IMG/VR virus record: IMGVR_UViG_3300031758_000638
Coordinates: 1 to 22,185 of that record
Length of the DNA stretch: 22,185 nt
Reading direction: 5' to 3' (one strand)
Source: a virus
Part shown: positions 6,319-18,852 of the stretch, piece by piece
How the letters are laid out: every line of letters starts with the position of its first letter
Position numbering within the stretch: position 1 is the stretch's first letter
The notes under the pieces: generated by a model
The model's database searches: none
What the model was told of the DNA's origin: nothing
The model's input: the letters and a program-made list of their open reading frames with translations, nothing else
Program-made: the position numbers and the translations under genes

Positions 6319-8046
6319 ATGGCTACTTATAACAATTTTAATACATCAGGATTTGGTCAGAATTTCATAGGAAATAACTCAGCAATAGAAAATAAAGGAT
6401 TATTTAGTAGAATCTTAAGAACACTTTCTAATTATGGTATGAACTATGATGACATGATTATAAAAAATCAAGTCGGTATTGGAATCAATGAAGATCCTTA
6501 CTCAGCAAAGGGTAATTCTATGTATGATTTCTTTTCACAAAGAGCTGTTGCTTCAGTTTTAAATAGAAAATCAATTCCTTATTTAGATAAGTCATATGCT
6601 GATAAAAGAAGAATTTTAAGAGAGTATTCAATTAAAGATGAAATTAGAGATTTTGTTTCTGCTATATCAGATGAGACAGTAGTTTATAACGAGGATAAAG
6701 ACTTTTGTTCACCAAGACCGCTGCCTACTGATTATTCACAAGAAATAACAGATAAGTATCAAGAATTTTTTGAGAGATTATACACAAAATTTGGATTCTC
6801 GGATAATATCACCGCTTGGAATATGTTGAGAGATTTCTTAATTGATGGATATATTGCAATTGAAATAATTTATGATGATAAAAAGAAAAATGTTATCGGA
6901 TTCAACAGATTGAGACCCGAGACATTAGTTCCGGCTTATGAGCCAAATGTTGGCCACCTTTGGATTCAGTTTTCAGAAGATCCTCAACTTAGGAGAATTT
7001 TCTTAGATTCTCAGATTATTTATATATCATATTCCACTCAAAATGATTATTCGGAAACTTCTTATGTGGAAGGATTAATCAAGCCTTATAACCAATTAAA
7101 AATTCTTGAACAAACAAGAATTATGTGGAACGTAACAAATGCAATGATTTGGCAAAAATTTACAATTCCAATTAAAGGTTTATCTCGTCAAAGAGCAGAA
7201 GAACAGATAGGTCAATTAATTCATGACTATTCGGAGGAAGTTGAATGGGATGATACCTTAGGAACTTTATCAATAAATGGGTCTAAGCACTTACACTATA
7301 ACAAACAAATCTGGTTTCCAGAAGGAGATGCCGGAACACCGGGATTTGAAATCGTTAAACAAGAGGGACATGACTTAAATGATGAAACAATGTTAAAGTG
7401 GTTTCACCAAGGACTTAAAAGAGCTTCAAAAATTCCACTTACTCGTTTTGAGGGTGACTCGGGTGGTGGTAACTTAATAACAGATGCCGCTGAGATGACA
7501 AGAGATGAAATTAAGTTTCATAATTTTATTAGTAGATTGAGAGCAAATTTTAAAGAGATTATTGTTAAGCCTCTTAAATTACAAATGCTAATCGAGTTTC
7601 CTGAGTTAAAGGATGATGAAGTTTTTGTTAATAGCGTTGATATCATTTTCTATACTAATCAGATTTTTGAAGAATGGAAAAAAATAAATAATTTAGCTAA
7701 AAGAGCTGAGGCTGTTACTACATTAACCGGAATTATGAATGGAGAACAACCATATTTTCACATTGAGTGGATTATGGATAATGTCTTTAAATTAACACCT
7801 GAAGAAAAAACTGAAAACCAAAGATATTGGGCTAAAGATGCCGCTAATAAAGCGGCTGCTGGTGCGGCTGGTGCTGCTCCTGGTGCTGAAGGTGGTGCTC
7901 CAGTTGAAGGAGAAATGCCGGCTGAAGGTGGAGAAGCTCCTGTTGAGGGTGGTGGTGAAGCTCAAGCAGGAGCTCAAGATGCTCCAGAGGCACCTGCTGA
8001 AGGAGGAGGAGAAGCGCCCGCTGAAGGAGGAGAATTTGAGTTTTAA
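6319..8046 (+). CDS. Portal vertex protein (T4 gp20-like)
   Basis: 575 residues, close to T4 gp20 (524) once the extra tail is discounted. The portal forms the 12-fold ring at one head vertex through which DNA is packaged and ejected. Supporting stretches include LREYSIKDEIRDFVSAISDE (about 96-117), FLIDGYIAIEIIYD, a long stem-like helix with LKWFHQGLKRASKIPLTRF, and a T4-like TRDEIKFHNFISRLRANFKEIIVKPLKLQ. The last ~60 residues (after about 512) are a low-complexity Ala/Gly/Glu/Pro tail such as APAEGGGEAPAEGG, which is not part of the usual gp20. The stop overlaps the stop of a convergent minus-strand gene and no terminator is visible there. Neighbours downstream (protease-scaffold, capsid) match the T4 head order, although an antisense cassette interrupts it. 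Confidence 0.9.
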   Translation: MATYNNFNTSGFGQNFIGNNSAIENKGLFSRILRTLSNYGMNYDDMIIKNQVGIGINEDPYSAKGNSMYDFFSQRAVASVLNRKSIPYLDKSYADKRRILREYSIKDEIRDFVSAISDETVVYNEDKDFCSPRPLPTDYSQEITDKYQEFFERLYTKFGFSDNITAWNMLRDFLIDGYIAIEIIYDDKKKNVIGFNRLRPETLVPAYEPNVGHLWIQFSEDPQLRRIFLDSQIIYISYSTQNDYSETSYVEGLIKPYNQLKILEQTRIMWNVTNAMIWQKFTIPIKGLSRQRAEEQIGQLIHDYSEEVEWDDTLGTLSINGSKHLHYNKQIWFPEGDAGTPGFEIVKQEGHDLNDETMLKWFHQGLKRASKIPLTRFEGDSGGGNLITDAAEMTRDEIKFHNFISRLRANFKEIIVKPLKLQMLIEFPELKDDEVFVNSVDIIFYTNQIFEEWKKINNLAKRAEAVTTLTGIMNGEQPYFHIEWIMDNVFKLTPEEKTENQRYWAKDAANKAAAGAAGAAPGAEGGAPVEGEMPAEGGEAPVEGGGEAQAGAQDAPEAPAEGGGEAPAEGGEFEF

Positions 8047-8477: not shown

Positions 8478-8908
8478 GCCGCCATTTTTGGTAATTCAAA
8501 ATAAAAATTATCTATTTGACCTTCTATATTTATATGTTGAAATAGTTTTAAATCTATGTCGGATTCAAGTATATTTTTAACTTTTTTACCCCAGTTCGTG
8601 TCTAAAAAGGTAACATCAATTTTTAAGTTAATGATTTGGTTGTTTAGGATAATAAAAACAAATTTATTTATAACAGAACAAACATTTACCAAAGCGGTTG
8701 TGTATTTAAAATCATCCGAAACACTAACATAAAAGACACTTTGATTATTTGGTATTTCAACATCAAATTGAATTTTTTTACCTTCTTCTAATAAAATATT
8801 TAGGTTTATTTCTCTTTTGTATTTTTTCCAATTACTAAATCGTGATAGAATGTCTTCATAATCCTCTATTTTGGAATTATTTAATTCTATTTCAAATGTC
8901 CTTTTCAT
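8474..8908 (-). CDS. Hypothetical protein
   Basis: 144 residues, not recognised. The sequence alternates beta-strand-like hydrophobic stretches (FYVSVSD, FVFIILNNQIINLKIDVTFL) with charged loops, suggesting a small soluble alpha/beta or beta domain. There is no signal peptide, zinc site or membrane helix. It is coupled on both sides: its start shares one base with the RNase R stop (TAATG) and its stop overlaps the next start (ATGA). Co-expression with RNase R makes it a candidate cofactor or independent accessory protein, but nothing in the sequence shows which. Confidence 0.68.
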   Translation of the reverse strand: MKRTFEIELNNSKIEDYEDILSRFSNWKKYKREINLNILLEEGKKIQFDVEIPNNQSVFYVSVSDDFKYTTALVNVCSVINKFVFIILNNQIINLKIDVTFLDTNWGKKVKNILESDIDLKLFQHINIEGQIDNFYFELPKMAA

Positions 8909-10785
8909 TAGAATAATTTAAAGTCAATTTGCTTTTTTTCTAAATCAACTGTTGATACTATAACTTTTAAAGGATCCCCTAGTCTAATTTTATTACCCAT
9001 TTCATCTGAAATAGTATAATGTTCTAAATCTACTTTTACTTTACCTATTGTATTATATCTTATCATTCCCTCGCATTTGGATTCGGTTAATTCTACATAA
9101 ATTCCCCAATCTGTTACACCTGATACAATTCCGTCAAAAACTTGACCAATTTTATCTTGTAAAAACTCAGCTTGTTTGTATTTTATAGAGTCTCTTTGTG
9201 CTTTTGCTGCTATTAATTCTCTACTAGAACACCAACTAGCATTTTCTTCAATTTTAGCAGGATTTCCTTGTTTTCCTTTATTTAAAAAATCAAATAAAAT
9301 TCTATGTGTGATTAAATCCGGATATCTTCTAATTGGAGATGTAAAGTGAGAATAGTGACTGAAACCTAATCCATAGTGACCAATGTTCTTGATAGTATAT
9401 TTAGCCTTAGACATACATCTGGTAACTAAAGTCTCTATCATGTTTTCTTCAGGAGTTCCTTTTATTTCTTTTAGTAGTTGATTAATTGATTTTTTTAAAT
9501 CATCTCCTTCTCCTTCTATTTTAACATTGTGTCCAAAATTCTCACAAACTCCTACTAGTTGTTGTAATTTTTCCATATTTGGTGTATCGTGTATTCTATA
9601 AACATTAAACCATTGATTTTCTGAAAGTATTTTAGCAACTGATTTGTTAGCTAGTAACATAAATTCTTCAATAAGTTTGTTAGCTTCTTTTTGTTCTTTG
9701 AAATAAACTCCAATAGGTTTTTTATTATCTTCTGCTAATTTAAAACGAACTTCAATTCCTCCCATTTCGATTGAACCATCTTTTATTCTTTTCTTTCTAA
9801 TTTTCTGAGCTAATGTATTAAGAACTCTTATTTCATTGTGAAAGTCTCCGTCAGATCCTTCGATTATTTCTTGAGCTTCTTCGTAAGTAAATCTTCTATC
9901 TGAGTGTATAACCGTTTTTCCGTGCCACTCTTTAATAATTTTCCCATCTTTATCTATATTGAATATTACAGAAAAGGCCAAACGATCTTCATGTGGCTTT
10001 AGTGAGCAAATTCCGTTACTTAGTCTCTCAGGTAACATCGGAACGCATCTATCAACTAAATATACCGATGTTGCTCTTTTGTAAGCTTCTTCATCTAGTT
10101 TAGTTCCTGGTTTTACATAGTGACCAACGTCTGCTATATGAACTCCTACTTCAATATTATTTTCGTTGATTATTTGTATTGAAAGAGCGTCATCAAAATC
10201 TCTAGCATCGACCGGATCTATTGTTAGTGTTGTTACACTTCTTAAATCTTTTCTTTTTAGTATTTCATTTTCAAATATTACTTCAGGTACTAATTCTGAC
10301 TCATTTAAAACTTCTTGTGGAAAATCAACCGGTAGATTATACTCATACATTATTGAGTTCATTTCCGCGTTGTTATCACCTGCGTCTCCGAGTATTTTAG
10401 TTATTTTACCCTGTGGTGACTTAGAATCTTCCCATTTTGTTAGTTCTACAATAACTTTTTGTCCGTCTTTTGCAACTAATCCACCTTTGATATAAAAATC
10501 TACTGATAATTTATCACTGTCTGGTATTACAAATGTCGACTTTTTTCCTATTTGAACTCTACCAACAAAATCTGTTCTAAATCTTGAAACTGTTTCAATT
10601 ACTTTCCCCTCTAATTTCTTTTCACCTTTAAATATTTCTACTTTTACTTTATCTAAGTGTAGTGAGTTATGAGTATTTTTTCTGTGTATAAAAATTGACT
10701 TTTCTCCAATTGTTATGTTTGCATTTCCACTATTTGAGAACTCTATTTGACCTTCATATCGATCACCTTCTATTATGTTTATCAT
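8908..10785 (-). CDS. rnr: RNase R / RNase II-family 3'-5' exoribonuclease
   Basis: 625 residues. This is a processive 3'-5' exoribonuclease that degrades structured RNA. The order is an N-terminal cold-shock-like OB region (about 1-130), the RNB catalytic domain and a C-terminal S1 domain (about 548-625). The catalytic acids are in TIDPVDARDFDD: Asp190, Asp196, Asp198 and Asp199. The RNB signature continues with RCVPMLPERLSNGICSL and HYSHFTSPIRRYPDL. The S1 domain shows VFDGIVSGVTDWGIYVEL. It is shorter than E. coli RNase R (813): the N-terminal helix-turn-helix region and the Lys-rich C-terminal tail are missing, and it ends at DFKLF. In E. coli that tail helps recruit the enzyme to tmRNA-rescued ribosomes. 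It lies in an antisense operon within the head genes. Likely roles are phage or host mRNA turnover and, with the phage tmRNA, nonstop-mRNA decay (inference). Confidence 0.93.
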   Translation of the reverse strand: MINIIEGDRYEGQIEFSNSGNANITIGEKSIFIHRKNTHNSLHLDKVKVEIFKGEKKLEGKVIETVSRFRTDFVGRVQIGKKSTFVIPDSDKLSVDFYIKGGLVAKDGQKVIVELTKWEDSKSPQGKITKILGDAGDNNAEMNSIMYEYNLPVDFPQEVLNESELVPEVIFENEILKRKDLRSVTTLTIDPVDARDFDDALSIQIINENNIEVGVHIADVGHYVKPGTKLDEEAYKRATSVYLVDRCVPMLPERLSNGICSLKPHEDRLAFSVIFNIDKDGKIIKEWHGKTVIHSDRRFTYEEAQEIIEGSDGDFHNEIRVLNTLAQKIRKKRIKDGSIEMGGIEVRFKLAEDNKKPIGVYFKEQKEANKLIEEFMLLANKSVAKILSENQWFNVYRIHDTPNMEKLQQLVGVCENFGHNVKIEGEGDDLKKSINQLLKEIKGTPEENMIETLVTRCMSKAKYTIKNIGHYGLGFSHYSHFTSPIRRYPDLITHRILFDFLNKGKQGNPAKIEENASWCSSRELIAAKAQRDSIKYKQAEFLQDKIGQVFDGIVSGVTDWGIYVELTESKCEGMIRYNTIGKVKVDLEHYTISDEMGNKIRLGDPLKVIVSTVDLEKKQIDFKLF

Positions 10786-10795
10786 AGAAGTTGTA

Positions 10796-11194
10796 TTATT
10801 CAGAATCTTTTTGTTTAGTTTCTTTCTTTGAAATGTTTTCTACTCCGTATTTTTTTAGGAGAGTTTTTTTCATTTTTCCCATTAATTTTTTATTCTGTAT
10901 AGGGTAATCCACTCCGTAGTTTTTTTGTAAAGTCTCTTTTCTTTTCTTTTCTGAGCATTTTCTACAATTATATTCTCCCCAGTTGTTATCATATTTGACG
11001 TAGTTTTTAAAAATAACTTCTTTTTCTAAACCACACATATCACATTTGCATTTAATCTTGTAATGAGATCCTTTAGACATTAGTTCAACGGGTATTAAAA
11101 GATTTTCTCCAATTAATACTTCGTAACCAAGATCCTCATAGTATTGATAATTGGATTCAGTAATCTTAATCTTTATTTCTCTGGTAAGAATCAT
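10796..11194 (-). CDS. Zinc-ribbon protein with YGV repeats, homing-endonuclease-associated type
   Basis: 132 residues. Four or five cysteines form a probable zinc ribbon: CKCDMC near residues 49-54 and CRKC near 77-80. The C-terminal third has two copies of a K-[KN]-Y-G-V-[DE]-x motif (KNYGVDYPIQN and KKYGVENISKK). These repeats are common in phage proteins that carry, or have lost, a homing-endonuclease domain, where they probably contact DNA. No nuclease motif is visible here, so this may be a DNA-binding remnant or a stand-alone regulator. It is the first gene of the minus operon and ends 10 bases before RNase R starts. The ATG at 11194 is preceded by an A/T-rich gap without a Shine-Dalgarno sequence. 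Confidence 0.6.
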   Translation of the reverse strand: MILTREIKIKITESNYQYYEDLGYEVLIGENLLIPVELMSKGSHYKIKCKCDMCGLEKEVIFKNYVKYDNNWGEYNCRKCSEKKRKETLQKNYGVDYPIQNKKLMGKMKKTLLKKYGVENISKKETKQKDSE

Positions 11195-11292
11195 AAAAAA
11201 CCGTTTAAAATTTAAAGTTATTTATTAAATAGTTTCTTCTTCCTACTAATGTTTTACATGTCTTTTTATTTTCAGTAGTTCTCGAGGACTAT

Positions 11293-11326
11293 AAAAAATC
11301 CACCTTTTAAAATAGGTGGTTTTTTA
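11293..11326 (+). terminator. Rho-independent-type terminator upstream of the protease-scaffold gene
   Basis: An A-run is followed by CCACCT, a short A/T loop, AGGTGG and a run of six T. The stem is CCACCT (11300-11305) with AGGTGG (11314-11319). The flanking A and T runs make it usable in either direction, but no gene on the minus strand points into it. On the + strand it would stop transcripts running through the antisense cassette from the portal gene. Confidence 0.65.
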
Positions 11327-11331
11327 TTAGG

Positions 11332-11340
11332 AATATATAC
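11332..11340 (+). promoter_or_regulatory. Putative late promoter of the protease-scaffold gene
   Basis: AATATATAC is identical to the 9-mers at 4143 and 15719 and lies immediately after the terminator. It leaves a leader of about 30 nt before the ATG at 11377. Confidence 0.55.
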
Positions 11341-11376
11341 AACAACTTTAAAAGGGTAAAAAATAATTATTTTTGA

Positions 11377-13470
11377 ATGAAACCAGTATTAATCGTAGAA
11401 AACTCTACTAGTTCGTTGATACGAGAAAATGCTTCCGGTAAAAAAGATTACGTTTTAGGTGGAACCTTCACAGAATTTGGTGTGAAGAACCGTAATGAAC
11501 GTATTTACACGGCAGACAGATTCTTACCAGCGTTAGATGAGTTAAATGAAAGAATGAGCAGTTTAGGTGCTGTTTACGGTGAATTTGATCACCCAGATGT
11601 TTTTGACACTTCGTTAGCAAGAGCATCACACGTAATCACCAAGGCACAATATGTTAAAGAACAAAATATTGTATCAGGTGAAATTAGACTTCTAAGTACT
11701 TATTGGGGTAAAGAGGCAAAAGCATTAGTAGATGATGGTTGTCCAGTTTTCGTTTCTTCTAGAGCGGCTGGTATCACTGAATCGGATGGTTCTGTTTCTT
11801 TGAAGAAGTTATTTACATATGACATCGTTGCTGATCCAGGATTTGCTTCGGCTAAAATGTCTGTAAAGGTACTAAATGAATCTTTAGGTTATACTAACCC
11901 AAAATCTAACTTTAGGATATATGAAATGTCCGACGAGTCAAAAATAAATGAATTATTCAACATGAACAAGAACGAATTTGTTACAAAAAAACAGTTGACT
12001 GATTATTCAAAGTATCTAGTAAATGAGATTGCTTCTACTAAAAAAGAAGTTAAATCTGCTATTTCTAAAGGTGATATGGCTCCTAAGAAATTAGAGCAAT
12101 TGCTTGAATACTATGAAGAATTAAACACAACTAATGAGAAAGTAGTTAAGTATTTAGATTACTTAGCAGAGAAAATTCAGGTAGTGGTTAATGAGAACAA
12201 ATCTCTTAAATCTACAACTGAGAAATTAGCTAAACACAATGACTATTTAGCTGAAAATCTTGAAAAGGCTATTAATTACACTGAGTATGTAGCTGAGAAT
12301 CTTGATAAAAACATTGAGTATTCTGAGTATGTAGCAGAAAACTTAGATAAAAACATTTCTTATTCTGAGTATATCGCTGAGAATCTTGATAAGAATATTT
12401 CTTATTCTGAGTATTTAGCAGAAAACTTAGATAAAAACATTGCTTACTCTGAATACATCGCAGAAAACTTAGACAAAAACATTGCTTACTCTGAATACAT
12501 CGCAGAAAACTTAGACAAAAACATTGCTTACTCTGAATATATCGCAGAACATGTTGATAATTCAATTGCTTACTCTGAGTATTTAGCAGAACATGTTGAA
12601 GGTAACATCGCTTACTCTGAGTACATTGCTGAGCATTTAGATGATAATATCGCTTATTCAGAATATATCGCAGAAAATTTAGATAAATCAATTTCTTATC
12701 AAGGAATGATTGTTGAGAAATTAAACTCTAAAGGTGGTAAATTATTTGAAAATAATGAAGAAGAGAATTTTCCTTCACTTTCAGCTGCAGGTTTTGAAGC
12801 AGTAGAAGACGAGGATGAGAATGAAAACAATTATGATTATAAAGGTGTTCCTTCTCATGAAGAGGAAGAATCCTATTCTTATGAAAATGAAGATGAAAAC
12901 GAAGATGATGAAGAATGTGGTCCAAATTCTTATGAAGTAAGTGGTCACGAAGATTCTGAATTGTCTGAGTCAATTAATAAACTTATTGAAGAAGCTAAAA
13001 AACGTAAAGTTTCTGAAACAACTGACTTGAATTTCTTAAAATTCTTAAACAAGTCACAAGTTGACAGCTTTTATGCACTTTCTGATGAAGAACAAGAAAC
13101 TGTTAAACTACACATAAACGAAAGTAGTTATTTTACACAGAAGGAAGTTCTATCATTAATCGCTGAAGCTCTATCTACAAAGAATGAAACTCTAGAAGAA
13201 AGAGTAATCAGATTAATGCCTGAAAACACTAAGGCAATCTGGAGTCAAATGAACGAATCAGCTAAAAAATCTATCTTATCACAAGCTAGACTTTATCCAT
13301 CTGAAGTTTTAATGACTGAATCACAAGTTGAGCATTTCTGGTTAACTAGAAACCTCAAAAAGAATGAATCTGTAACTAAAAAATTAGTTGCTCACGAGAC
13401 TTTGATACAAGAAGATAAACTTTCTGATAATGAAGCTCAAGCTATTTTAGAAAGATTCAAAAAGATTTAA
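11377..13470 (+). CDS. Prohead protease (gp21-like) fused to scaffold/core protein (gp22-like)
   Basis: 697 residues. The first ~170 match a T4 gp21-type prohead serine protease: the KNRNERIYTADRF region, His72 in GEFDHPD as catalytic His, and Ser127/Ser128 in FVSSRAAG as nucleophile, followed by YDIVADPGFA. The enzyme matures the head by cutting after [LI]-x-E. Residues ~190-285 are helical. Residues 287-440 are eleven tandem 14-residue units (consensus YSEYIAENLDKNIA). After this come a Glu/Asp-rich linker (about 455-530) and a helical C-terminal region (about 535-697) suited to a scaffold core. In T4 the protease (gene 21) and scaffold (gene 22) are separate adjacent genes; here they are one frame. 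Each repeat contains [ILV]-A-E, resembling the protease's own target. The MCP gene follows after 79 bases, as in T4. Confidence 0.88.
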   Translation: MKPVLIVENSTSSLIRENASGKKDYVLGGTFTEFGVKNRNERIYTADRFLPALDELNERMSSLGAVYGEFDHPDVFDTSLARASHVITKAQYVKEQNIVSGEIRLLSTYWGKEAKALVDDGCPVFVSSRAAGITESDGSVSLKKLFTYDIVADPGFASAKMSVKVLNESLGYTNPKSNFRIYEMSDESKINELFNMNKNEFVTKKQLTDYSKYLVNEIASTKKEVKSAISKGDMAPKKLEQLLEYYEELNTTNEKVVKYLDYLAEKIQVVVNENKSLKSTTEKLAKHNDYLAENLEKAINYTEYVAENLDKNIEYSEYVAENLDKNISYSEYIAENLDKNISYSEYLAENLDKNIAYSEYIAENLDKNIAYSEYIAENLDKNIAYSEYIAEHVDNSIAYSEYLAEHVEGNIAYSEYIAEHLDDNIAYSEYIAENLDKSISYQGMIVEKLNSKGGKLFENNEEENFPSLSAAGFEAVEDEDENENNYDYKGVPSHEEEESYSYENEDENEDDEECGPNSYEVSGHEDSELSESINKLIEEAKKRKVSETTDLNFLKFLNKSQVDSFYALSDEEQETVKLHINESSYFTQKEVLSLIAEALSTKNETLEERVIRLMPENTKAIWSQMNESAKKSILSQARLYPSEVLMTESQVEHFWLTRNLKKNESVTKKLVAHETLIQEDKLSDNEAQAILERFKKI
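12235..12696 (+). repeat. Eleven tandem 42-bp coding repeats in the scaffold region
   Basis: Eleven in-frame units of 42 bp (14 codons) run without gaps. The units at 12445-12486 and 12487-12528 are identical at DNA level; the others differ mainly at third positions and at a few residues (NLDK, HVDN, HVEG, HLDD variants). The outer units are the most diverged. This pattern suggests growth by tandem duplication under selection for the peptide. The period of 14 equals two helical heptads, with Tyr, Ile/Leu/Val and Ile at regular positions, consistent with a coiled-coil rod. Confidence 0.95.
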
Positions 13471-13513
13471 TCTATAAAAAATCCACACCTTCAAAAATTA
13501 GGGAAATAAAGGG

Positions 13514-13523
13514 TTATATATAG
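13514..13523 (+). promoter_or_regulatory. Putative late promoter of the major capsid gene
   Basis: TTATATATAG lies in the 79-bp gap before the capsid gene, 26 bases upstream of its ATG, and is followed by an A-rich leader of about 20 bases with no Shine-Dalgarno sequence. The context GTTATATATAGATAAC has partial dyad symmetry. It is a variant of the AATATATAC motif found before other units. Confidence 0.5.
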
Positions 13524-13549
13524 ATAACAAAAAAAAATAAATTTAAACT

Positions 13550-15256
13550 ATGTCACACATTAGAATAGACAAATCAAAAGCTCTTAAGAAGTGGTCTCCA
13601 GTTCTTGAGAACATGGGTGTAGCAGGTGAAGACAGACTTGATTGGATGTCAGAATATGCTGAGTATCACTCAATTAATGAGAACGCGTATGTAAACGCTT
13701 CTAACGTAGCTGGTATGGGTGCAGTATTGAACCCAGTAATTGGTGGTCCTGCTGGAACAACAGTAGGTGCTAACTACACAGGAACTCCTGGTTCTGGTGA
13801 TGTTGGTCAAAACCTATTACCTGTAGCTATGAAAATCGCAGCTCAAACAATCGGTCTTGACCTTGTTGCTGTTAAACCTTCTCCAGGTCCAAAAATCGAC
13901 TTACTTTACATTGACTTCCAATATGATGATACAAGATTGGGACAACAAGATGAAAGACCACAAGTTTTCAAATTAAACGTTGATGATGCTGCTCAGAAAG
14001 CTGCTGTAAATGCTACTTTGACAGCTAACGCTGGTGCTCAAACACAAGGTGGTCTTCAAGGAAGATGGTTCACAAACATCTACGGTTCAACTGTAAATGC
14101 TGCTGCTGATCCAGGTGGTTCTAGAGCGGGTGTTGTTGAATTCTTAGGATTCTCTCGTATTGATGGTTATCCAATGTTTAGAGCTTTCAGACAATTTAAT
14201 ACATCTCATACAGCTGTTAATAGTGGTGCTGGTGCTCTTTGGTCATTTGATGAAACAAGAAACACTTTCAATGCAACTATGTCAATGGTTGATCAAATCG
14301 CTACAGTAGGTACTGTATCTGTTACTCCAGGTGCTGCTAACTTAACAGTTGAATTAGTATCAGCTCTTGAAGATCATATCCCTGGATTCTCTTCAAACTG
14401 GACATCAGGAGCTTCTGGATTTACTGGAAACTACCCAATGTCTCGTCAGGATGATGATGATACTTACTCAGGTGTTATCGGTCCAAAAATCTCTTCTAAA
14501 ACTATCGCAGTTGGTACTATCGAAGTATCTTCAGCTCTTAGAAGAACTGAAATTGAAGATATCAAAGCTAACACAGGTATGGATATCGTTCAAAAAATGG
14601 AATCTATTCTTGTTAATGAATTATCTCAAACAATCTCTAAGCAAATCGTTGCTAAGATTTTTGAATTAGGTGATCTTAACAGAACTTCAGCTCCAGCAGC
14701 AGGTGCAGCATTAACTGGTGACCCAGCTGGTAAGACTATCTTCGACTTAAACACAGCTTATGTTGGTACAGGTGGTCCTGGTGGTGAAACTACTCACGCT
14801 GTTCAAAGAAAGCTTGTCACTAAGATTGCTCACGCTTCTAACTATATCGCAACTGAAGGTCGTGTAGGTCCTGCTCAGTACGTTATTACAAACGGAGGTC
14901 TTGCTGCAGCTCTATCTGATATCGCTGGTTATACAATTAACCCGTTGAAGTCTAAAATGAATGCTTCTGGACAACTTTACCCTGTAGGTTCAATTGGTGA
15001 TATTTCAATCTATGTTGATCCATATATGAAATATAACGACAACAGAATCGTTCTTGGTAGAAAGAACAATCCTGACCAACCAGGTATCATTTTCGTACCT
15101 TACTTAATGGCTCAGTCAATCTCTATCATTTCTGAAGCTACATTCGCTCCAAGAATGTTACTAAGAAGTAGATATGCAGTTGCTGAAGTTGGTTGGTTCC
15201 CACAAAAGCAATTTATGACTATCAAAGTTGTAGATGCAGCTGGTTTCCTTAACTAA
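13550..15256 (+). CDS. Major capsid protein (T4 gp23-like)
   Basis: 568 residues, compared with 521 for T4 gp23. It forms the head shell. The stretch LLPVAMKIAAQTIGLDLVAV then KPSPGPKIDLLYIDFQY (about 87-125) parallels the gp23 region where the mature shell fold begins. The C terminus has PRMLLRSRYAVAEVGWFPQ, also typical. Residues 1-44 should be a cleavable propeptide: SINE-N at 41-45 fits the [LI]-x-E rule, giving a mature start at Asn45. The region ~155-265 is Gly/Ala/Thr-rich and may be an inserted surface domain. Codon use favours GTT, GGT, GCT and CTT, consistent with very high expression. It follows the protease-scaffold gene and is closed by a strong terminator. Confidence 0.92.
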   Translation: MSHIRIDKSKALKKWSPVLENMGVAGEDRLDWMSEYAEYHSINENAYVNASNVAGMGAVLNPVIGGPAGTTVGANYTGTPGSGDVGQNLLPVAMKIAAQTIGLDLVAVKPSPGPKIDLLYIDFQYDDTRLGQQDERPQVFKLNVDDAAQKAAVNATLTANAGAQTQGGLQGRWFTNIYGSTVNAAADPGGSRAGVVEFLGFSRIDGYPMFRAFRQFNTSHTAVNSGAGALWSFDETRNTFNATMSMVDQIATVGTVSVTPGAANLTVELVSALEDHIPGFSSNWTSGASGFTGNYPMSRQDDDDTYSGVIGPKISSKTIAVGTIEVSSALRRTEIEDIKANTGMDIVQKMESILVNELSQTISKQIVAKIFELGDLNRTSAPAAGAALTGDPAGKTIFDLNTAYVGTGGPGGETTHAVQRKLVTKIAHASNYIATEGRVGPAQYVITNGGLAAALSDIAGYTINPLKSKMNASGQLYPVGSIGDISIYVDPYMKYNDNRIVLGRKNNPDQPGIIFVPYLMAQSISIISEATFAPRMLLRSRYAVAEVGWFPQKQFMTIKVVDAAGFLN

Positions 15257-15276
15257 TATTAAGTTACCAAATATTC

Positions 15277-15306
15277 AAAAAAGACCTCTAAATGAGGTCT
15301 TTTTTG
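15277..15306 (+). terminator. Terminator of the major capsid gene
   Basis: The hairpin arms AAAAAAGACCTC (15277-15288) and GAGGTCTTTTTT (15294-15305) flank the loop TAAAT, with a perfect 12-bp stem including the A/T pairs. It lies 20 bases after the capsid stop. The symmetric A/T flanks could also work on the minus strand. Confidence 0.9.
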
Positions 15307-15318
15307 TTTTATATAAAT

Positions 15319-15328
15319 AATATATATG
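15319..15328 (+). promoter_or_regulatory. Putative late promoter of the NFACT-R gene
   Basis: AATATATATG lies right after the capsid terminator and ends 2 bases before the ATG at 15331. If it is a -10 element, transcription would start at or inside the first codons, giving a leaderless mRNA. Confidence 0.42.
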
Positions 15329-15330
15329 TA

Positions 15331-15714
15331 ATGAAATATTTGAAATATTTTGAAAGTAAAAAGCCTAAATTCCCAGATATCAAAAAGATTGAAGTTGATG
15401 GTTTTTTTCTACAATATGGAAGAGATGCTAAATCAAATGACTATTTAACTTTTAATGTTGCTGAGGATGAAGATATTTGGATGCACGTTAAAGGTGTTCC
15501 TGGTTCTCATGTTGTTATAAGAGTTAGAGAAAACTTACCTACACCTGAAATATTAAAATATGCCGCTGAAATTGCTAAAAAGAATTCAAAAGCAGCTAAA
15601 GAACCTTCTGTCAAAGTGGTTTATTGTCAAAGAAAGTTTGTCAAAAAAGAACCTGGTATGAATGATGGTCAAGTTAAAGTTGATTATATAAATGCGGAAG
15701 AAATCACTATTTAA
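15331..15714 (+). CDS. Stand-alone NFACT-R (DUF814) RNA-binding domain protein
   Basis: 127 residues from the ATG at 15331. A longer in-frame start at 15292 is rejected because it lies inside the capsid terminator. Residues 22-112 closely follow the NFACT-R domain of RqcH/NEMF-type proteins: VDGFFLQYGRDAKSNDYLTF, DIWMHVKGVPGSHVVIR, a helix with YAAEIAKKNSKAAK, and a VKKEPGM end. In RqcH this domain binds RNA on obstructed large ribosomal subunits during C-terminal alanine tailing. Here the NFACT-N, HhH and coiled-coil parts are absent, so alanine tailing by itself is unlikely. The protein may bind tRNA or stalled subunits, or interfere with host RqcH (inference). The first residues MKYLKYFES resemble a capsid-targeting leader. 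It sits between the capsid gene and a peptidase, 2.2 kb from the tmRNA. Confidence 0.85.
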   Translation: MKYLKYFESKKPKFPDIKKIEVDGFFLQYGRDAKSNDYLTFNVAEDEDIWMHVKGVPGSHVVIRVRENLPTPEILKYAAEIAKKNSKAAKEPSVKVVYCQRKFVKKEPGMNDGQVKVDYINAEEITI

Positions 15715-15718
15715 ATTT

Positions 15719-15727
15719 AATATATAC
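15719..15727 (+). promoter_or_regulatory. Putative late promoter of the peptidase gene
   Basis: AATATATAC (in TTTAATATATACTGAT) begins 5 bases after the NFACT-R stop and ends 4 bases before the peptidase ATG. It is the same 9-mer as at 4143 and 11332. As at 4155, the spacing implies a nearly leaderless transcript. Confidence 0.5.
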
Positions 15728-15731
15728 TGAT

Positions 15732-17273
15732 ATGAATTTATTTAAATTTAATCAAATATTTGAGGCTGGAACACAGTCTATAACTGATCCAAATAGAAAT
15801 ATACCAACTGGTGCATATAAATCTAAAGAAGATGTTTTCAAAAAAGAAGCACCAAAAGACGTAGATAGGAGTGCTAGAATTAAAATTTCTAGTGAATTAG
15901 AAAAAGTTCTTAAGAAAATGGAAGATAATGATAGTTATCTTGCATTTGAAATGCTTTGGTTGGGTGAGCCTGGATCTAAGTATCAAAATGGTTTAGGAAT
16001 TACAGATGTTACAATTTCAAATAAGGCTTATTGTTTTGAGGTAACTATTGGTGGTAAAAAATTTGATATGAAGATTGGTAAGTTCTTTAGATATTATTGG
16101 CCTGGTCTTCTTACTGAAGATGAAATAAAGTCTTTTATTTATCAATACAATGATATGGTTTCTGATAATATCGGAGATGAATCTACGACTTCCGCTCAAA
16201 GAATACAAGTGCCTTCTTTTACTTATAATCCAAAGGATGTTAAGGCAACTTTTCTGTCTTTGACTACTAAAACTTATCCTCATTTTGATGATTGTAGACA
16301 TGAAAAAGAAGTATTACAGTTTTTACCAAAAGACTTAAAAAGAGACGAAGTTGGTAATTATTATAAAATAATAGGAAGTGATAAACCAACAATAATGTTT
16401 ACTTGTCACTTAGATACCGCCGATAGAGAGCAAAAAACTACTAAACTTTTTCAAGCAAATGGTAGAGTATCGGAAGAGGGATATTCTTTTAGACTAATTA
16501 AAACTGGATCTGGTGATGAGCATATCTACACTGATGGATCTTCAATTTTAGGAGCCGATGATAAAGCAGGAACTGCTGTTATGTTATATATGATGACTAA
16601 CAATGTGCCGGGAATTTACTATTTCTTTATTGGTGAGGAAAGAGGTGGAATTGGTTCAAATGCACTCTCTTCAATATATGATAGATGTGAATATCTTACT
16701 GATGTTAAAGCTTGTGTATCATTTGATAGAAGAAGAACTACATCTGTGATTACTCATCAGTTGGGAAGACAATGTTGTTCAAATGAGTTTGGACAAGCAC
16801 TTTGTGACGAATATAACAAAAGCGGTTTAAATCTTTCATTAGATACAACTGGTGTTTATACTGATTCGGCTTCTCTAATGGAGGATATTGCTGAATGTAC
16901 TAATATATCTGTTGGTTATTATAACGAACACAGAGGAACAGAAATGCAAAATATGACTTACCTCATTAAGTTAGCAGAGGCTTCTGTTAAAGTTGATTGG
17001 AATAAACTTCCGATTAAAAGAAAGGTTGGTTATAATGAAGAATTATTTGCAAAACATAAGAATCTTATAAACGAGATTAAAAAGAATGTATTTGGGATTG
17101 ATGTAAAGGTCATTGGTAAAGATGATAGAATATTTGTTAGTTTAGATTTAGAAGAGACTGATATGGGTGAAATTTATGATTCACTTATAAGAATACAGAC
17201 AATACTTAACAAGTACAAAATAGAGGATTTAGGAATCTTTGATGAAACATATTTTAAAATAGAGCTAAAGTAA
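15732..17273 (+). CDS. M20-family (peptidase T-like) zinc metallopeptidase
   Basis: 513 residues. The catalytic part (about 190-430) has the full M20 metal and catalytic set: His226 in TCHLDTAD, bridging Asp276 in LGADDKAG (as in peptidase T), Glu302/Glu303 in GEERGG, Asp332 in SFDRRR and His400 in NEHRGTE. Such enzymes use two zinc ions to remove residues from peptides. The ~185-residue N-terminal extension (WLGEPGSKYQNGLGITDV and following) is not part of peptidase T and is unrecognised; the C-terminal ~80 residues are also extra. The leader MNLFKFNQIFEAGTQ resembles a capsid-targeting sequence, with IFE-A fitting the prohead-protease rule. The gene is followed after one base by the acidic protein. 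Possible roles are processing of head peptides or degradation of host or tagged peptides; none is shown by the sequence. Confidence 0.82.
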   Translation: MNLFKFNQIFEAGTQSITDPNRNIPTGAYKSKEDVFKKEAPKDVDRSARIKISSELEKVLKKMEDNDSYLAFEMLWLGEPGSKYQNGLGITDVTISNKAYCFEVTIGGKKFDMKIGKFFRYYWPGLLTEDEIKSFIYQYNDMVSDNIGDESTTSAQRIQVPSFTYNPKDVKATFLSLTTKTYPHFDDCRHEKEVLQFLPKDLKRDEVGNYYKIIGSDKPTIMFTCHLDTADREQKTTKLFQANGRVSEEGYSFRLIKTGSGDEHIYTDGSSILGADDKAGTAVMLYMMTNNVPGIYYFFIGEERGGIGSNALSSIYDRCEYLTDVKACVSFDRRRTTSVITHQLGRQCCSNEFGQALCDEYNKSGLNLSLDTTGVYTDSASLMEDIAECTNISVGYYNEHRGTEMQNMTYLIKLAEASVKVDWNKLPIKRKVGYNEELFAKHKNLINEIKKNVFGIDVKVIGKDDRIFVSLDLEETDMGEIYDSLIRIQTILNKYKIEDLGIFDETYFKIELK

Positions 17274-17274
17274 T

Positions 17275-17844
17275 ATGAAAATAAAAACATTTATAAAATA
17301 TTTAGAAAATATCAGAGAAGACGAATTTAGTCATCTTAATAACGAACTTTCTGCTAATAAGAAAAATGAAGCTCGTTGGCCAGAAGATGATTATGGATAT
17401 GATGATGATTCTACTAAAGATTATGGAGATTATGATGATTGGTATGACGATGAAAGTACGCGTGATAACTCGAGAAAATCATCAAATCCTAAATTCGATG
17501 ATGAAGATGATGACTATGGATATGAATCAGATGATGATGATGATGATGATGACGTGCAACATTTAACTTATTTGCTTCGTCAAATGTTTAGAAACTCGGG
17601 TGTTGATAATGTTCAGATTACGGCAAAAAGAAATGAGGATATTGTCATTGAAGTTAATATGGCAAAAAAAGAGACACTTAGAAGTATTATTAAAGTTTTT
17701 GAAGTAGCTAACAAACTTAAAAGAGATATATTAGCTCAATATGATGCTGAATTTGACATTTGGCAATCGAAATCCGGTGGTGGAATACTTTCGTTTGGTT
17801 TTACATTAGATGAAGGTTTAGAAGATGATAATATGCCATTTTAA
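17275..17844 (+). CDS. Acidic Asp-rich protein with SSB-like C-terminal tip
   Basis: 189 residues in three parts. Residues 1-15, MKIKTFIKYLENIRE, look like a capsid-targeting leader. Residues ~32-95 are a disordered Asp/Tyr/Ser-rich segment ending in a run of eight Asp, strongly negative and DNA-mimic-like. Residues ~96-175 form a small alpha/beta domain (LTYLLRQMFRNSGVDNVQI, then EVANKLKRDIL). The last residues are LEDDNMPF, close to the conserved C-terminal peptide of bacterial SSB proteins (DDDIPF/DDDLPF), which docks RecQ, RecO, PriA, exonuclease I and others. No OB fold is evident, so it is not an ordinary SSB. It begins one base after the peptidase stop. The function is unknown; binding SSB-partner proteins is a testable inference. 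Confidence 0.75.
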   Translation: MKIKTFIKYLENIREDEFSHLNNELSANKKNEARWPEDDYGYDDDSTKDYGDYDDWYDDESTRDNSRKSSNPKFDDEDDDYGYESDDDDDDDDVQHLTYLLRQMFRNSGVDNVQITAKRNEDIVIEVNMAKKETLRSIIKVFEVANKLKRDILAQYDAEFDIWQSKSGGGILSFGFTLDEGLEDDNMPF

Positions 17845-17870
17845 TTAAACTTTTTCTTATTTTCAAATAT

Positions 17871-17879
17871 TATATATAC
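17871..17879 (+). promoter_or_regulatory. Putative late promoter of the tmRNA
   Basis: TATATATAC in ATTATATATACATTTG lies 26 bases before the first base of the tmRNA acceptor stem. A transcript starting a few bases downstream would have a short 5' extension for RNase P removal. Confidence 0.5.
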
Positions 17880-17905
17880 ATTTGTAAAATAATTACAATG
17901 ACTAT

Positions 17906-18282
17906 GGGGATGTCATAGAATAGATTCATAGAGTAGTGGTAGTTATGCAGGTGTCGGGTGGTTAAATGACCGACTAATAAATTAGGTAACAAAAGTCGTA
18001 AATGGCAAAACAAATGAAGTAGCATCCCGTGAAGATTTAGTAGCGGCGTTACAAAACAACATGCTTAAGGCAGAAGAGCTAGCAGTAGTTTAAGCTTTTA
18101 AGCTAATCGCAAAAATTCTCCAGCTGAATCACACAGTTTAAAATGTGAAACCAGAATTGTTAGAGTGATGGGTTAGTTCAACTAAATATTTTGTGAGTTT
18201 AGAAAAATTTCACTAAGCCTGTAAATGAATAATTATTGTTAGCTAGGGAAGACACCGGAGGCAGAGCCGGTCATCTCCACTA
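17906..18282 (+). ncRNA. ssrA: tmRNA (transfer-messenger RNA)
   Basis: A one-piece tmRNA of about 374-377 nt. The acceptor stem pairs GGGGATG (17906-17912) with CATCTCC (18272-18278), followed by A and CTA, so CCA is not encoded exactly. The D-loop region keeps GATTC. CACTAAGCCTGTA near the 3' end matches the conserved CTAAGCATGTA of bacterial tmRNA and pairs with TATGCAGG near the 5' end (P2). PK1 is GTCGG/CCGAC (about 17963-17982) with GTTA/TAAC as the second helix. A tag reading frame follows AAAAGTC and ends in TAA at 18091-18093. Downstream, GAC-ACCGG ... CCGGT forms the T stem, but the loop AGGCAGAG lacks the canonical TTC. tmRNA with SmpB frees ribosomes stalled on broken mRNA and tags the product for proteolysis. 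No smpB is present in the window. Confidence 0.92.
17998..18093 (+). other. tmRNA tag-peptide reading frame
   Basis: The tag frame starts at GTA (17998), right after AAAAGTC as in E. coli (TAGTC-GCA), or at the in-frame GGC (18004). The latter would give a tag beginning GKTNE, similar to Bacteroidota tags that begin GE(T/N)N. Either way the frame ends AEELAVV and TAA, for 31 or 29 residues, against 8-15 in most bacteria. The pairing GCTTAA (18063-18068) with TTAAGC (18090-18095) makes a P5-like hairpin over the end of the tag, where the stop codon usually lies. The end AVV is hydrophobic but differs from the usual LAA recognised by ClpXP. Confidence 0.75.
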
Positions 18283-18289
18283 AAATTAA

Positions 18290-18312
18290 GTCCGCCTAAG
18301 GTGGACTTTTTT
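18290..18312 (+). terminator. Terminator of the tmRNA
   Basis: The stem GTCCGCC (18290-18296) with GGTGGAC (18300-18306), one G-U pair and the loop TAA is followed by six T. It begins 8 bases after the tmRNA 3' end. Confidence 0.88.
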
Positions 18313-18333
18313 AATTTATAACATATAAGAATT

Positions 18334-18852
18334 ATGAGTTATATCAATTCTTTTAGAGGTCGTTATTATTTCCTTTCAAACTTTTATCCCTGTAAAATTG
18401 AACATAAAGGAATTACATATCCTTCTGTAGAACACTATTATGTTGCTCTAAAAGTTACTCAAATGCAATTCATTGATGGTGTTTATTATACTGCTCCTGA
18501 TTTTAGAGAGTTAATTGCTAGAATACCAGATGCTGGTGATGTAAAAAAATTAGGAAGTCGAGTAAAAGTTAGACAAGATTGGGAAGAAAAAAAATTAGAC
18601 TTTATGAATTGGGGAATTCGTGAAAAATTCAAAGATCCTAAATTATGCGAGATGTTATTGGATACTGGTAAATTAGAACTTATAGAGGGTAACTTTTGGC
18701 ACGATGTCTTTTGGGGTCAGTGTTCTTGTCCAAAATGTAATAGTATTGGTGAAAATCATTTAGGTAAAATTTTAATGAAGATTAGAGAAGAATTAAGACA
18801 ACAAAATGAAAGACCTTCACTAGAAGAACAAATTAAAAATCAAAATAAATAA
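18334..18852 (+). CDS. NADAR domain protein (YbiA-like)
   Basis: 172 residues, essentially one NADAR domain. The hallmarks are F-x-G-x-YYFLSNFYPC (7-20), YPSVEHYYVALK with Glu33 and Lys40, DVKKLGSRVKVRQDWEEKK (69-87), LLDTGKLELIEGN (108-120), FWHDVFWG (121-128) and GENHLGKILMKIR (139-151). NADAR proteins act on ADP-ribose-type N-glycosidic bonds; some remove ADP-ribose from guanine in DNA as the antidote to DarT-like toxins, others act in riboflavin-intermediate damage control. An extra CSCPKC (130-135) sits before the GENHLG motif. It is followed after 1 base by a DNA adenine methyltransferase, which suits a role on phage DNA or against a host ADP-ribosylation defence (inference). The weak upstream A/T sequence after the tmRNA terminator may hold its promoter. 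Confidence 0.9.
   Translation: MSYINSFRGRYYFLSNFYPCKIEHKGITYPSVEHYYVALKVTQMQFIDGVYYTAPDFRELIARIPDAGDVKKLGSRVKVRQDWEEKKLDFMNWGIREKFKDPKLCEMLLDTGKLELIEGNFWHDVFWGQCSCPKCNSIGENHLGKILMKIREELRQQNERPSLEEQIKNQNK

Follow-up and report, generated by a model that had tools for sequence, protein, structure and literature searches.

Huge phages have been reported to carry a transfer-messenger RNA (tmRNA) and SmpB, the tmRNAs being called with ARAGORN; in the same paper, four genomes of 634, 642, 636 and 735 kb (LR745206, LR756502, LR756504 and LR756501) are assigned to the Mahaphage clade, with Bacteroidetes as predicted hosts (PMC7162821, excerpt). We have analysed a stretch of 22,185 bases from the IMG/VR virus record IMGVR_UViG_3300031758_000638 (positions 1 to 22,185, hereafter the window), which belongs with these phages and carries a divergent form of the tmRNA as well as a gene for a free-standing NFACT-R protein, a domain of the ribosome quality-control factor RqcH. 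With a probability of roughly 0.45, we read the locus as two neighbouring systems among the head genes of a Mahaphage, namely trans-translation by a tmRNA and SmpB of the phage, and a ribosome-binding fragment that would be packaged, injected and act on the 50S subunit of the host ribosome.

Compared with the standard one-piece bacterial tmRNA (Rfam family RF00023), the phage RNA is alike in the acceptor with its G3.U70 pair, helix 2, the first pseudoknot (PK1), the resume site, the tag and the T-arm, but differs in the elbow, in the length of the tag, in a hairpin inside the tag frame and in the encoded 3' end. Another phage-encoded relative, the DS6A tmRNA, consists of the tRNA-like domain only and has no tag frame, whereas the tmRNA of the window has one. 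On the one hand, the phage NFACT-R protein has domain sequence and fold in common with RqcH of the NEMF family, but it lacks the NFACT-N, helix-hairpin-helix, coiled-coil and M domains and has an additional N-terminal leader. On the other hand, it resembles CCDC25 (25-27% identity) in being a solo NFACT-R fold without NFACT-N, but CCDC25 has a coiled coil, for which the phage protein is too short, and the phage protein has the leader. Like IPII and IPIII among the T4 proteins IPI, IPII, IPIII and Alt, it begins with a short leader, and a gp21-type protease and a gp23-type capsid protein are encoded in the same module. It differs from the T4 internal proteins (IPs) in that the presumed cargo is a host translation-factor domain, in that the spacing to the glutamate is usually one residue shorter, and in that the leader is widespread in the phage genome.

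tmRNA and SmpB

The tmRNA and its parts lie as follows.

17906 to 18282, plus strand: tmRNA gene (one-piece, divergent), from a full-length RF00023 match of 26.8 bits and covariation in 62 sequences
17953 to 17990, plus strand: pseudoknot PK1, stem 1 17953-17957/17970-17974 and stem 2 17961-17964/17987-17990, from covariation
18004 to 18093, plus strand: tag reading frame (A)GKTNEVASREDLVAALQNNMLKAEELAVV with stop UAA, after the resume site UAAAU/GGC (boundary between U and G), the frame being kept in homologues
18021 to 18050, plus strand: RNA hairpin inside the tag frame with a covarying stem and the conserved loop UGAAGAUUUAGUA, coordinates counted from the aligned row
18254 to 18271, plus strand: T-arm with the non-canonical loop AGGCAGAG, from the alignment of 62 rows
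17877 to 17884, plus strand: TAnnTTTG box upstream of the tmRNA, from a scan upstream in relatives
18290 to 18313, plus strand: intrinsic terminator after the tmRNA, from the sequence

An earlier note on this window had proposed the tmRNA, and by the evidence of alignment and covariation we are practically certain that it is real. ARAGORN found no tmRNA at 17906-18282, and an Rfam scan at the gathering threshold found none in the window. With a relaxed threshold, RF00023 gave a full-length match (1-374) with exactly the ends proposed (E 7e-9 for 751 bases), its score lying below the Rfam cut-off (26.8 bits vs a gathering score of 47). Syntenic copies are present in LR745206 and LR756502, where ARAGORN was blank too; among 11 tested loci carrying the tmRNA it detected one, the divergent L271, whereas the published huge-phage tmRNAs were called with this program. 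A hidden Markov model (HMM) built from three syntenic copies gave 151 hits in 279 sequences, 141 of them full length, and 62 distinct sequences were retained. A 15-base tmRNA pattern matched 101 stretches in IMG/VR, 17 of which hold or overlap a tmRNA and are among the loci scanned with the HMM.

The acceptor, helix 2, PK1 and T-stem (26 pairs, 1593 cells) form standard pairs in 97.6% of cases, with two-sided changes in 16 of the 26 pairs. Neither value was reached in any of 500 shuffles, which ignore the relatedness of the rows, and partners slid along the alignment, a control that allows for it, were 30-45% paired. Helices 1 and 5 are 97.7% and 97.5% paired, and all six T-stem pairs show two-sided changes. 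In PK1, stem 1 is 100% and stem 2 92.2% paired, with two-sided changes in both. A second pseudoknot (PK2) behind the tag is 88% paired and the hairpin within the tag frame 96-100%; jointly these two reach 92.9%, with 11 of 13 pairs changed on both sides (slid controls 29-44%). Free folding of the alignment returned 47 pairs, 32 of them with compensatory change. The alanine identity pair G3.U70 is kept, being G-U in 59 of the 62 rows; in the remaining three, the 5' end is shifted by two columns in the alignment. The window tmRNA ends in ACTA, so that CCA is not encoded, and most relatives are alike in this: only 4/62 rows continue the A-C of the 3' end with a C as third base (by eye), which differs from the standard form.

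The canonical elbow of bacterial tmRNAs joins U54-U55-C56 of the T-loop (UUCRA) with G18-G19 of the D-loop. The phage family departs from it: 54 of the 62 rows combine AG in the D-loop with xGC in the T-loop, and GGCAGUA is the T-loop of 31. Three rows have D-loop GG together with GUC, and a UUC T-loop occurs in L188, L193, L194 and L271, the GG of L271 being out of register (by eye). The two loops change in step, as expected if both still touch, and a clade-wide tmRNA with an elbow rewritten in step (AG with xGC) and with tags of 27-30 residues that include an RNA hairpin is new here.

A resume site UAA(A/G)Y followed by G, with a stop downstream, is present in every one of the 62 rows, and insertions or deletions within the tag have lengths divisible by three (by eye). 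At 27-30 residues, the tags compare with a commonest length of 10 in bacteria (PMC11915505, excerpt). A start of the tag at GUA was dropped, as the UAA(A/G)Y-G site fits all rows. The tag frame forms the hairpin with its conserved loop, so the conserved E-D-L-V core owes its conservation at least partly to the RNA. The ratio pN/pS of the tag frame is 0.61 (48 unique codon sequences, including L144 and L151, in which the tag start was taken five codons early), which indicates weak constraint on the protein. Protein-level purifying selection as the main cause of core conservation was rejected on this value and because the invariant GAAGAUUUAGUA is the loop of the covarying hairpin, so that much of the conservation is accounted for by the RNA structure.

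A TAnnTTTG box, which we take to be the Bacteroidota -7 box, stands within 100 nucleotides (nt) upstream of the tmRNA in 39 of 61 relatives, compared with 6.2% for stretches taken at random. Downstream, 58 of 61 relatives have a terminator-like structure, a figure that has no background control. With a promoter-like box upstream and a terminator-like structure downstream, the tmRNA looks like a complete transcription unit. By eye, the region upstream (17850-17890 and its homologues) also has a recurrent AAACTTTTT, about 14 bases and then a TATAATATATA-like box, an arrangement that occurs also in rows without TAnnTTTG and may be a phage promoter class.

The earlier note had suggested looking for smpB elsewhere in the genome, a search that we made in the relatives. 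Pfam detected SmpB in all four complete relatives tested and in two large IMG/VR records (476 and 385 kb), which makes all six tested records of at least 385 kb, and in none of 17 shorter ones (12 of at most 249 kb and five of at most 122 kb). The DKR tail motif is present in the five SmpB proteins that were read, the sixth being that of LR756504. A phage-owned tmRNA-SmpB pair for trans-translation is the simplest reading of the gene content, and in our view the tmRNA probably works with the SmpB of the phage.

Two side observations concern rescue in the relatives. The four complete relatives tested (LR756501, LR756502, LR745206 and LR756504; L329-L332), and neither of two partial records, encode an RF-1-domain protein. 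In L329, L331 and L332 it has 134-142 amino acids (aa) and keeps GGQ, and as its match to release factor 1 is confined to the C-terminal half (about residues 192-340), it lacks the codon-reading part; it is possibly a codon-independent peptidyl-tRNA hydrolase for stalled ribosomes. The 735-kb LR756501 has, at about 718.4-718.7 kb (L009 1200-1900), a tmRNA candidate of 21 bits that abuts a group I intron in its T-arm and has a long tag (by eye); group I-type introns are known in bacterial tmRNAs (PMC11915505, excerpt).

NFACT-R protein and its leader

15331 to 15714, plus strand: solo NFACT-R protein of 127 aa, an RqcH-derived domain, PF05670 match of 55 bits (cut-off 29.8)
15331 to 15354, plus strand: leader MKYLKYFE of the NFACT-R protein, like the T4 capsid-targeting sequence, from family counts, model and junctions

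The NFACT-R gene proposed in the earlier note was confirmed, including its start: alignment places the conserved start at 15331, and the mechanical open reading frame (ORF) begins at 15292, 13 codons earlier. The best sequence matches are RqcH chains (E 1.1e-19), and the modelled fold is nearest to RqcH on the 50S subunit, with a root-mean-square deviation (rmsd) of 1.4 A and 38% identity over 110 columns. The alignment for the structure comprised 31 of 46 reduced sequences, after removal of rows that had in-frame stops, an alternative start or a divergent form. Among cellular relatives, 39 of 39 lie in stop-to-stop frames of at least 379 codons and are RqcH-like, the best being from Balneolaceae at 48%; these come from one pattern-based scan, by which other forms can be missed.

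NFACT-N is the tRNA-selecting part of RqcH (PMC8373112, excerpt), and structures of RqcH on the 50S subunit show NFACT-R close to the A-site finger, at poor resolution (PMC8012679, excerpt). The 127-aa phage protein lacks NFACT-N with its DR motif, and PF05833 found no NFACT-N in ten phage records, six of them partial. Considering that it is RqcH-like but has no NFACT-N, we regard it as the 50S-side domain alone. The earlier note had cited the alanine tailing of stuck nascent chains by RqcH; with NFACT-N lacking in the protein and not found in the ten records, the phage protein could not carry this out as RqcH does.

Within 50,697 phage records, a close solo homologue occurs only in LR745206 and LR756502, with 11 weaker matches at no more than 51% identity. 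PHROGs holds no family for the NFACT-R protein, and PADLOC holds none for it, for RNase R, for the neighbouring peptidase or for the acidic protein o189. The combination of tmRNA, NFACT-R and RNase R had been put forward as undescribed in phages. For NFACT-R our literature searches contain nothing to the contrary: there was no phage NFACT-R among the papers listed, and a search of PMC7162821 for the term NFACT gave no match; tmRNA plus SmpB, however, has been published for huge phages. As judged from its sequence, an RqcH fragment in a phage without the tRNA-selecting half and with a T4-CTS-like (capsid-targeting-sequence-like) leader, which it shares with an acidic neighbour, is new here.

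In T4, proteins are directed to the head by their ten N-terminal residues, behind which gp21 cuts; residues 4 and 7 serve in targeting and 8 and 10 in processing, and the internal proteins are described as basic (PMC9026906, excerpt). The T4 sequences give MKTYQEFIAE as the N-terminus of both IPII and IPIII, and gp67 of T4 has an acidic stretch. In the phage, the NFACT-R protein and the acidic o189, which are unrelated, start alike with M-(I/K)-x-K-(Y/F)-x-x-(F/L)-x-E, followed mostly by S, N, G or A, and residues 1-9 of NFACT-R are disordered in the model. Across 98 distinct leaders, the last residues are hydrophobic-x-E and a small residue comes next, which on comparison with the T4 sequences resembles gp21 sites.

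A leader pattern modelled on T4 IPII, and widened to a permissive form after the leaders had been inspected, matched 38 of 41 o189, 33 of 44 NFACT-R, 10 of 14 o215 (a third protein family) and 10 of 58 peptidase proteins, against 113 of 3345 pseudo-N-termini. Minor matches came from o144b (2/13) and nt254 (1/18). It matched none of the RNase R (0/49), protease (0/57), major capsid protein (MCP; 0/64), NADAR (0/41) and head-closure (0/46) proteins. Several NFACT-R misses are mechanical: in the window, for instance, the ORF call starts 13 codons early, and two of the 22 window ORFs were therefore counted with a leader (peptidase and o189).

The enzyme that would cut these leaders is the prohead protease, encoded with the other T4-type head genes of the window.

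6319 to 8046, plus strand: portal (gp20-type), Portal_T4 E 2.8e-56
11377 to 13470, plus strand: prohead protease (gp21-type), phrog_207 E 1.9e-30
13550 to 15256, plus strand: major capsid protein (gp23-type), Gp23 E 6.9e-27

Profile searches thus found portal, protease, MCP and a head-closure protein in the window, and the capsid protein is 77% identical to that of LR745206, 76% to LR756502, 53% to LR756504 and 52% to LR756501 and LR756503, with more distant matches to LR756500 (38%) and Lak phages (30%). On these matches, the window represents the head genes of a huge phage from the Mahaphage clade, in line with the phage origin assumed earlier.

Some NFACT-R genes are built differently. In LR756502 (L002 17254-17943) the frame continues about 100 residues upstream with no ATG at the leader, and in L271 it also extends upstream, to an LNE/SKK junction; possibly these frames are a precursor cut by the prohead protease. 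A second, divergent form of 185-191 aa, at 33-38% identity and with a similar leader, occupies the same place in L236, L210 and L078.

Neighbouring genes and linkage

15732 to 17273, plus strand: peptidase T-like (M20-type) protein with leader MNLFKFNQIFE then A, phrog_4191 and PepT matches
17275 to 17844, plus strand: o189, an acidic protein that begins with the leader MKIKTFIKYLE and has a small domain at its C-terminus, leader in 38/41, median isoelectric point (pI) 4.2
18334 to 18852, plus strand: NADAR protein directly downstream of the tmRNA, profile match
8908 to 10785, minus strand: RNase R, Pfam RNB E 3.1e-113 and NCBIfam RNase_R equivalog 657 bits (cut-off 598)

The peptidase T-like enzyme noted earlier beside NFACT-R is real. 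Its PepT similarity is weak and below curated cut-offs; H226, D276/D277, E302/E303, D332 and H400, which we take to be the PepT metal-ligand residues, are invariant in three orthologues. Its leader is present in some orthologues and missing in most, so it behaves like a detachable module. For o189, a known fold was rejected: the model from an alignment of 34 of 57 sequences has a pLDDT (predicted local distance difference test) of 63.6 and no PDB match at E <=0.001. RNase R, likewise correctly named before, has an intact RNB motif DARDFDD and runs from cold-shock domains to S1; no N-terminal helix-turn-helix domain was detected in the profile search. NADAR is on the same strand as the tmRNA in 40 of 40 cases and within 900 nt in 34 of 40, and it travels along in inverted blocks; it has a sub-threshold match to a NADAR anti-phage family and is perhaps a counter-defence enzyme.

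Linkage was counted with the MCP as anchor, chosen independently of NFACT-R and tmRNA. The best 80 of 201 relatives in an IMG/VR scan were kept, which tilts the sample to close relatives, and gave 56 clusters, 41 with 6 kb downstream and 39 with both flanks; a separate IMG/VR scan with NFACT-R gave 79 loci. In the 39 clusters with both flanks, the tmRNA was found in 37, NFACT-R in 31, RNase R in 30, all three in 24 and none in two. The co-occurrence in relatives that the earlier note had asked about is thus common.

Two further observations concern the window itself. At 10796-11194, adjoining RNase R, is a homing-endonuclease-like N-terminal fragment that is matched in 56 of 56 capsid clusters and stands directly before the protease in most, with or without RNase R. 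At 468-2270, an autotransporter-heptosyltransferase-like domain is fused to an FkbM methyltransferase domain, and another glycosyltransferase adjoins it.

Discussion

We propose the following course of events. The tmRNA would be transcribed from its own promoter to its own terminator, receive CCA, be charged with alanine by virtue of the kept G3.U70 pair and join the phage SmpB encoded elsewhere in the genome. During infection, the complex would release ribosomes that have stalled on broken mRNAs, adding the 27-30-residue tag. NFACT-R would be the 50S-side domain of a host-type RqcH that has lost the parts for tRNA selection and stalk binding and has gained a capsid-targeting leader of the T4 kind. 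Once the prohead protease has removed the leader, the domain would be packaged, enter the cell with the DNA and occupy the RqcH site on host 50S subunits. Host quality control would thereby be blocked from tailing and destroying nascent chains until the phage tmRNA-SmpB has been made. RNase R would be a separate RNA-turnover gene. Of this, the sequences themselves show the make-up of the RNA, SmpB in the relatives, the order of the genes, the loss of domains and the leader, and from them we infer transcription, charging, packaging, cleavage and 50S binding with its effect.

We read NFACT-R as packaged, injected and acting on the host 50S subunit, rather than as a member of a rescue set, because it is an RqcH fragment and shares its leader with an acidic neighbour that is missing together with it: in six clusters the tmRNA, peptidase and RNase R are kept, and NFACT-R and o189 are both undetected. 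The peptidase, which lies between NFACT-R and o189 elsewhere, yet stays in these clusters. From the leader and the head genes, packaging of NFACT-R appears slightly more probable than its alternative, and for action on the 50S subunit we see an even chance. The cohort of leader-bearing proteins may be the injected proteome of the phage. A stronger form of the reading is doubtful, namely that Mahaphages inject a stripped RqcH domain to disable or seize host ribosome quality control at once, and then replace host trans-translation with a private tmRNA-SmpB that has a re-coded elbow (A18/G55 for G18/U55) and a long, structured, phage-specific tag.

Several results weigh against the two-system reading, most of them concerning the leader. 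The pattern was formed after the leaders had been seen and is permissive; it also matches portals (6/57), o132 (7/63) and unlabelled ORFs (27/344). Of seven T4 N-termini it matches IPII only, not IPI or five core and shell proteins. An earlier, differently tuned pattern found only 20 of 41 o189 and as many as 9 of 18 nt254 proteins, with 33/44 NFACT-R, 12/14 o215 and 12/58 peptidases and 55 of 2234 controls. Of the 31 NFACT-R rows aligned, 4 have no hydrophobic-x-E/(S/G/K) junction. The joint absence of NFACT-R and o189 was judged by similarity, in genomes that are divergent and apparently fall into no more than two groups. As regards trans-translation, SmpB was not found in five records of the window's own population, all of at most 122 kb, and the weak protein-level constraint on the tag points the same way.

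The leader is, moreover, widespread: in ten 20-kb samples of LR745206 it was found in 27 of 250 ORFs, against 16 of 742 control starts. Pfam searches on 20 of the 27 carriers gave a NUDIX protein (L333:18783-19247), a poly(A)-polymerase-head, CCA-adding-like protein (L340:16201-17370) and most others without a family; a further carrier (L339:8260-9573) is a 2'-5' RNA ligase-like and exonuclease protein with an Acb1 match below the cut-off. With so many carriers, and some of them enzyme-like, the leader could be another sorting or expression signal, and NFACT-R an ordinary RNA-binding protein made in the cell. We consider this unlikely. About one sampled ORF in nine carries the leader, beyond the few internal proteins known from T4, and some carriers resemble nucleic-acid enzymes, but the gp21-like ends of the 98 distinct leaders and the absence of the leader from MCP, protease, RNase R, NADAR and head-closure proteins, with few portals matched, speak against this view.

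It is rather less probable that NFACT-R, as a basic protein packaged in the head, binds the phage DNA there in the manner of CCDC25 and has no role on the ribosome. This would suit the leader and the basic mature protein (median pI 9.1), and the fold matches the CCDC25-DNA structures 7eof and 8woh; since CCDC25, another solo NFACT-R, has been solved with DNA, DNA binding fits too and counts against action on the ribosome. However, the phage protein is nearest to RqcH in both sequence and fold, and the phage rows retain the RqcH-type core residues D-W-H...PGSH, SKA and VKK.

The earlier note had joined the three genes into one ribosome-rescue set. In a reading along these lines, tmRNA (with SmpB), NFACT-R and RNase R would form one coordinated rescue and clean-up set made late in infection. 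The rescue part survives in the tmRNA-SmpB pair; NFACT-R and RNase R each separate from the tmRNA in some clusters. The three genes do lie within 9.4 kb here and occur together in most clusters, and a general link between tmRNA and RNase R is known (PMC8012679, excerpt). However, RNase R is on the opposite strand and adjoins the homing-endonuclease-like gene; 9 of 39 clusters have no RNase R in the module, among the 31 clusters with both NFACT-R and tmRNA it was not found in 7, and it is sited elsewhere in LR756502 and LR756504 and was not found in LR756501. The six clusters with tmRNA and RNase R but without NFACT-R, and the lack of the tRNA-selecting half, likewise speak against a single set. 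A fixed unit including RNase R was rejected on these grounds, and we take RNase R to be a separate RNA-turnover gene, either a bystander of the rescue genes or loosely partnered with them; we hold a coordinated set to be improbable.

That the phage tmRNA is an inhibitor or decoy titrating host SmpB, as the DS6A RNA is (PMC4131195 and PMC11915505, excerpts) and as its altered elbow might suggest, is still less probable, because a decoy would have no need of a tag frame, resume site, PK1 and stop, yet all of these are kept in 62 sequences, and related genomes bring their own SmpB.

In summary, we favour the reading of phage trans-translation beside an injected NFACT-R fragment. As ARAGORN misses 10 of 11 loci of this clade-wide tmRNA, ribosome rescue by phages is probably under-counted. 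The linked change of D-loop and T-loop is a natural experiment on what SmpB, alanyl-tRNA synthetase and EF-Tu need of the elbow, and the leader could help to predict which proteins uncultured giant phages inject. We know of no phage described earlier that delivers a ribosome quality-control factor along with its DNA; if the reading is true, the packaged domain would be the first, and the phage would bring parts that control the ribosome into the cell.

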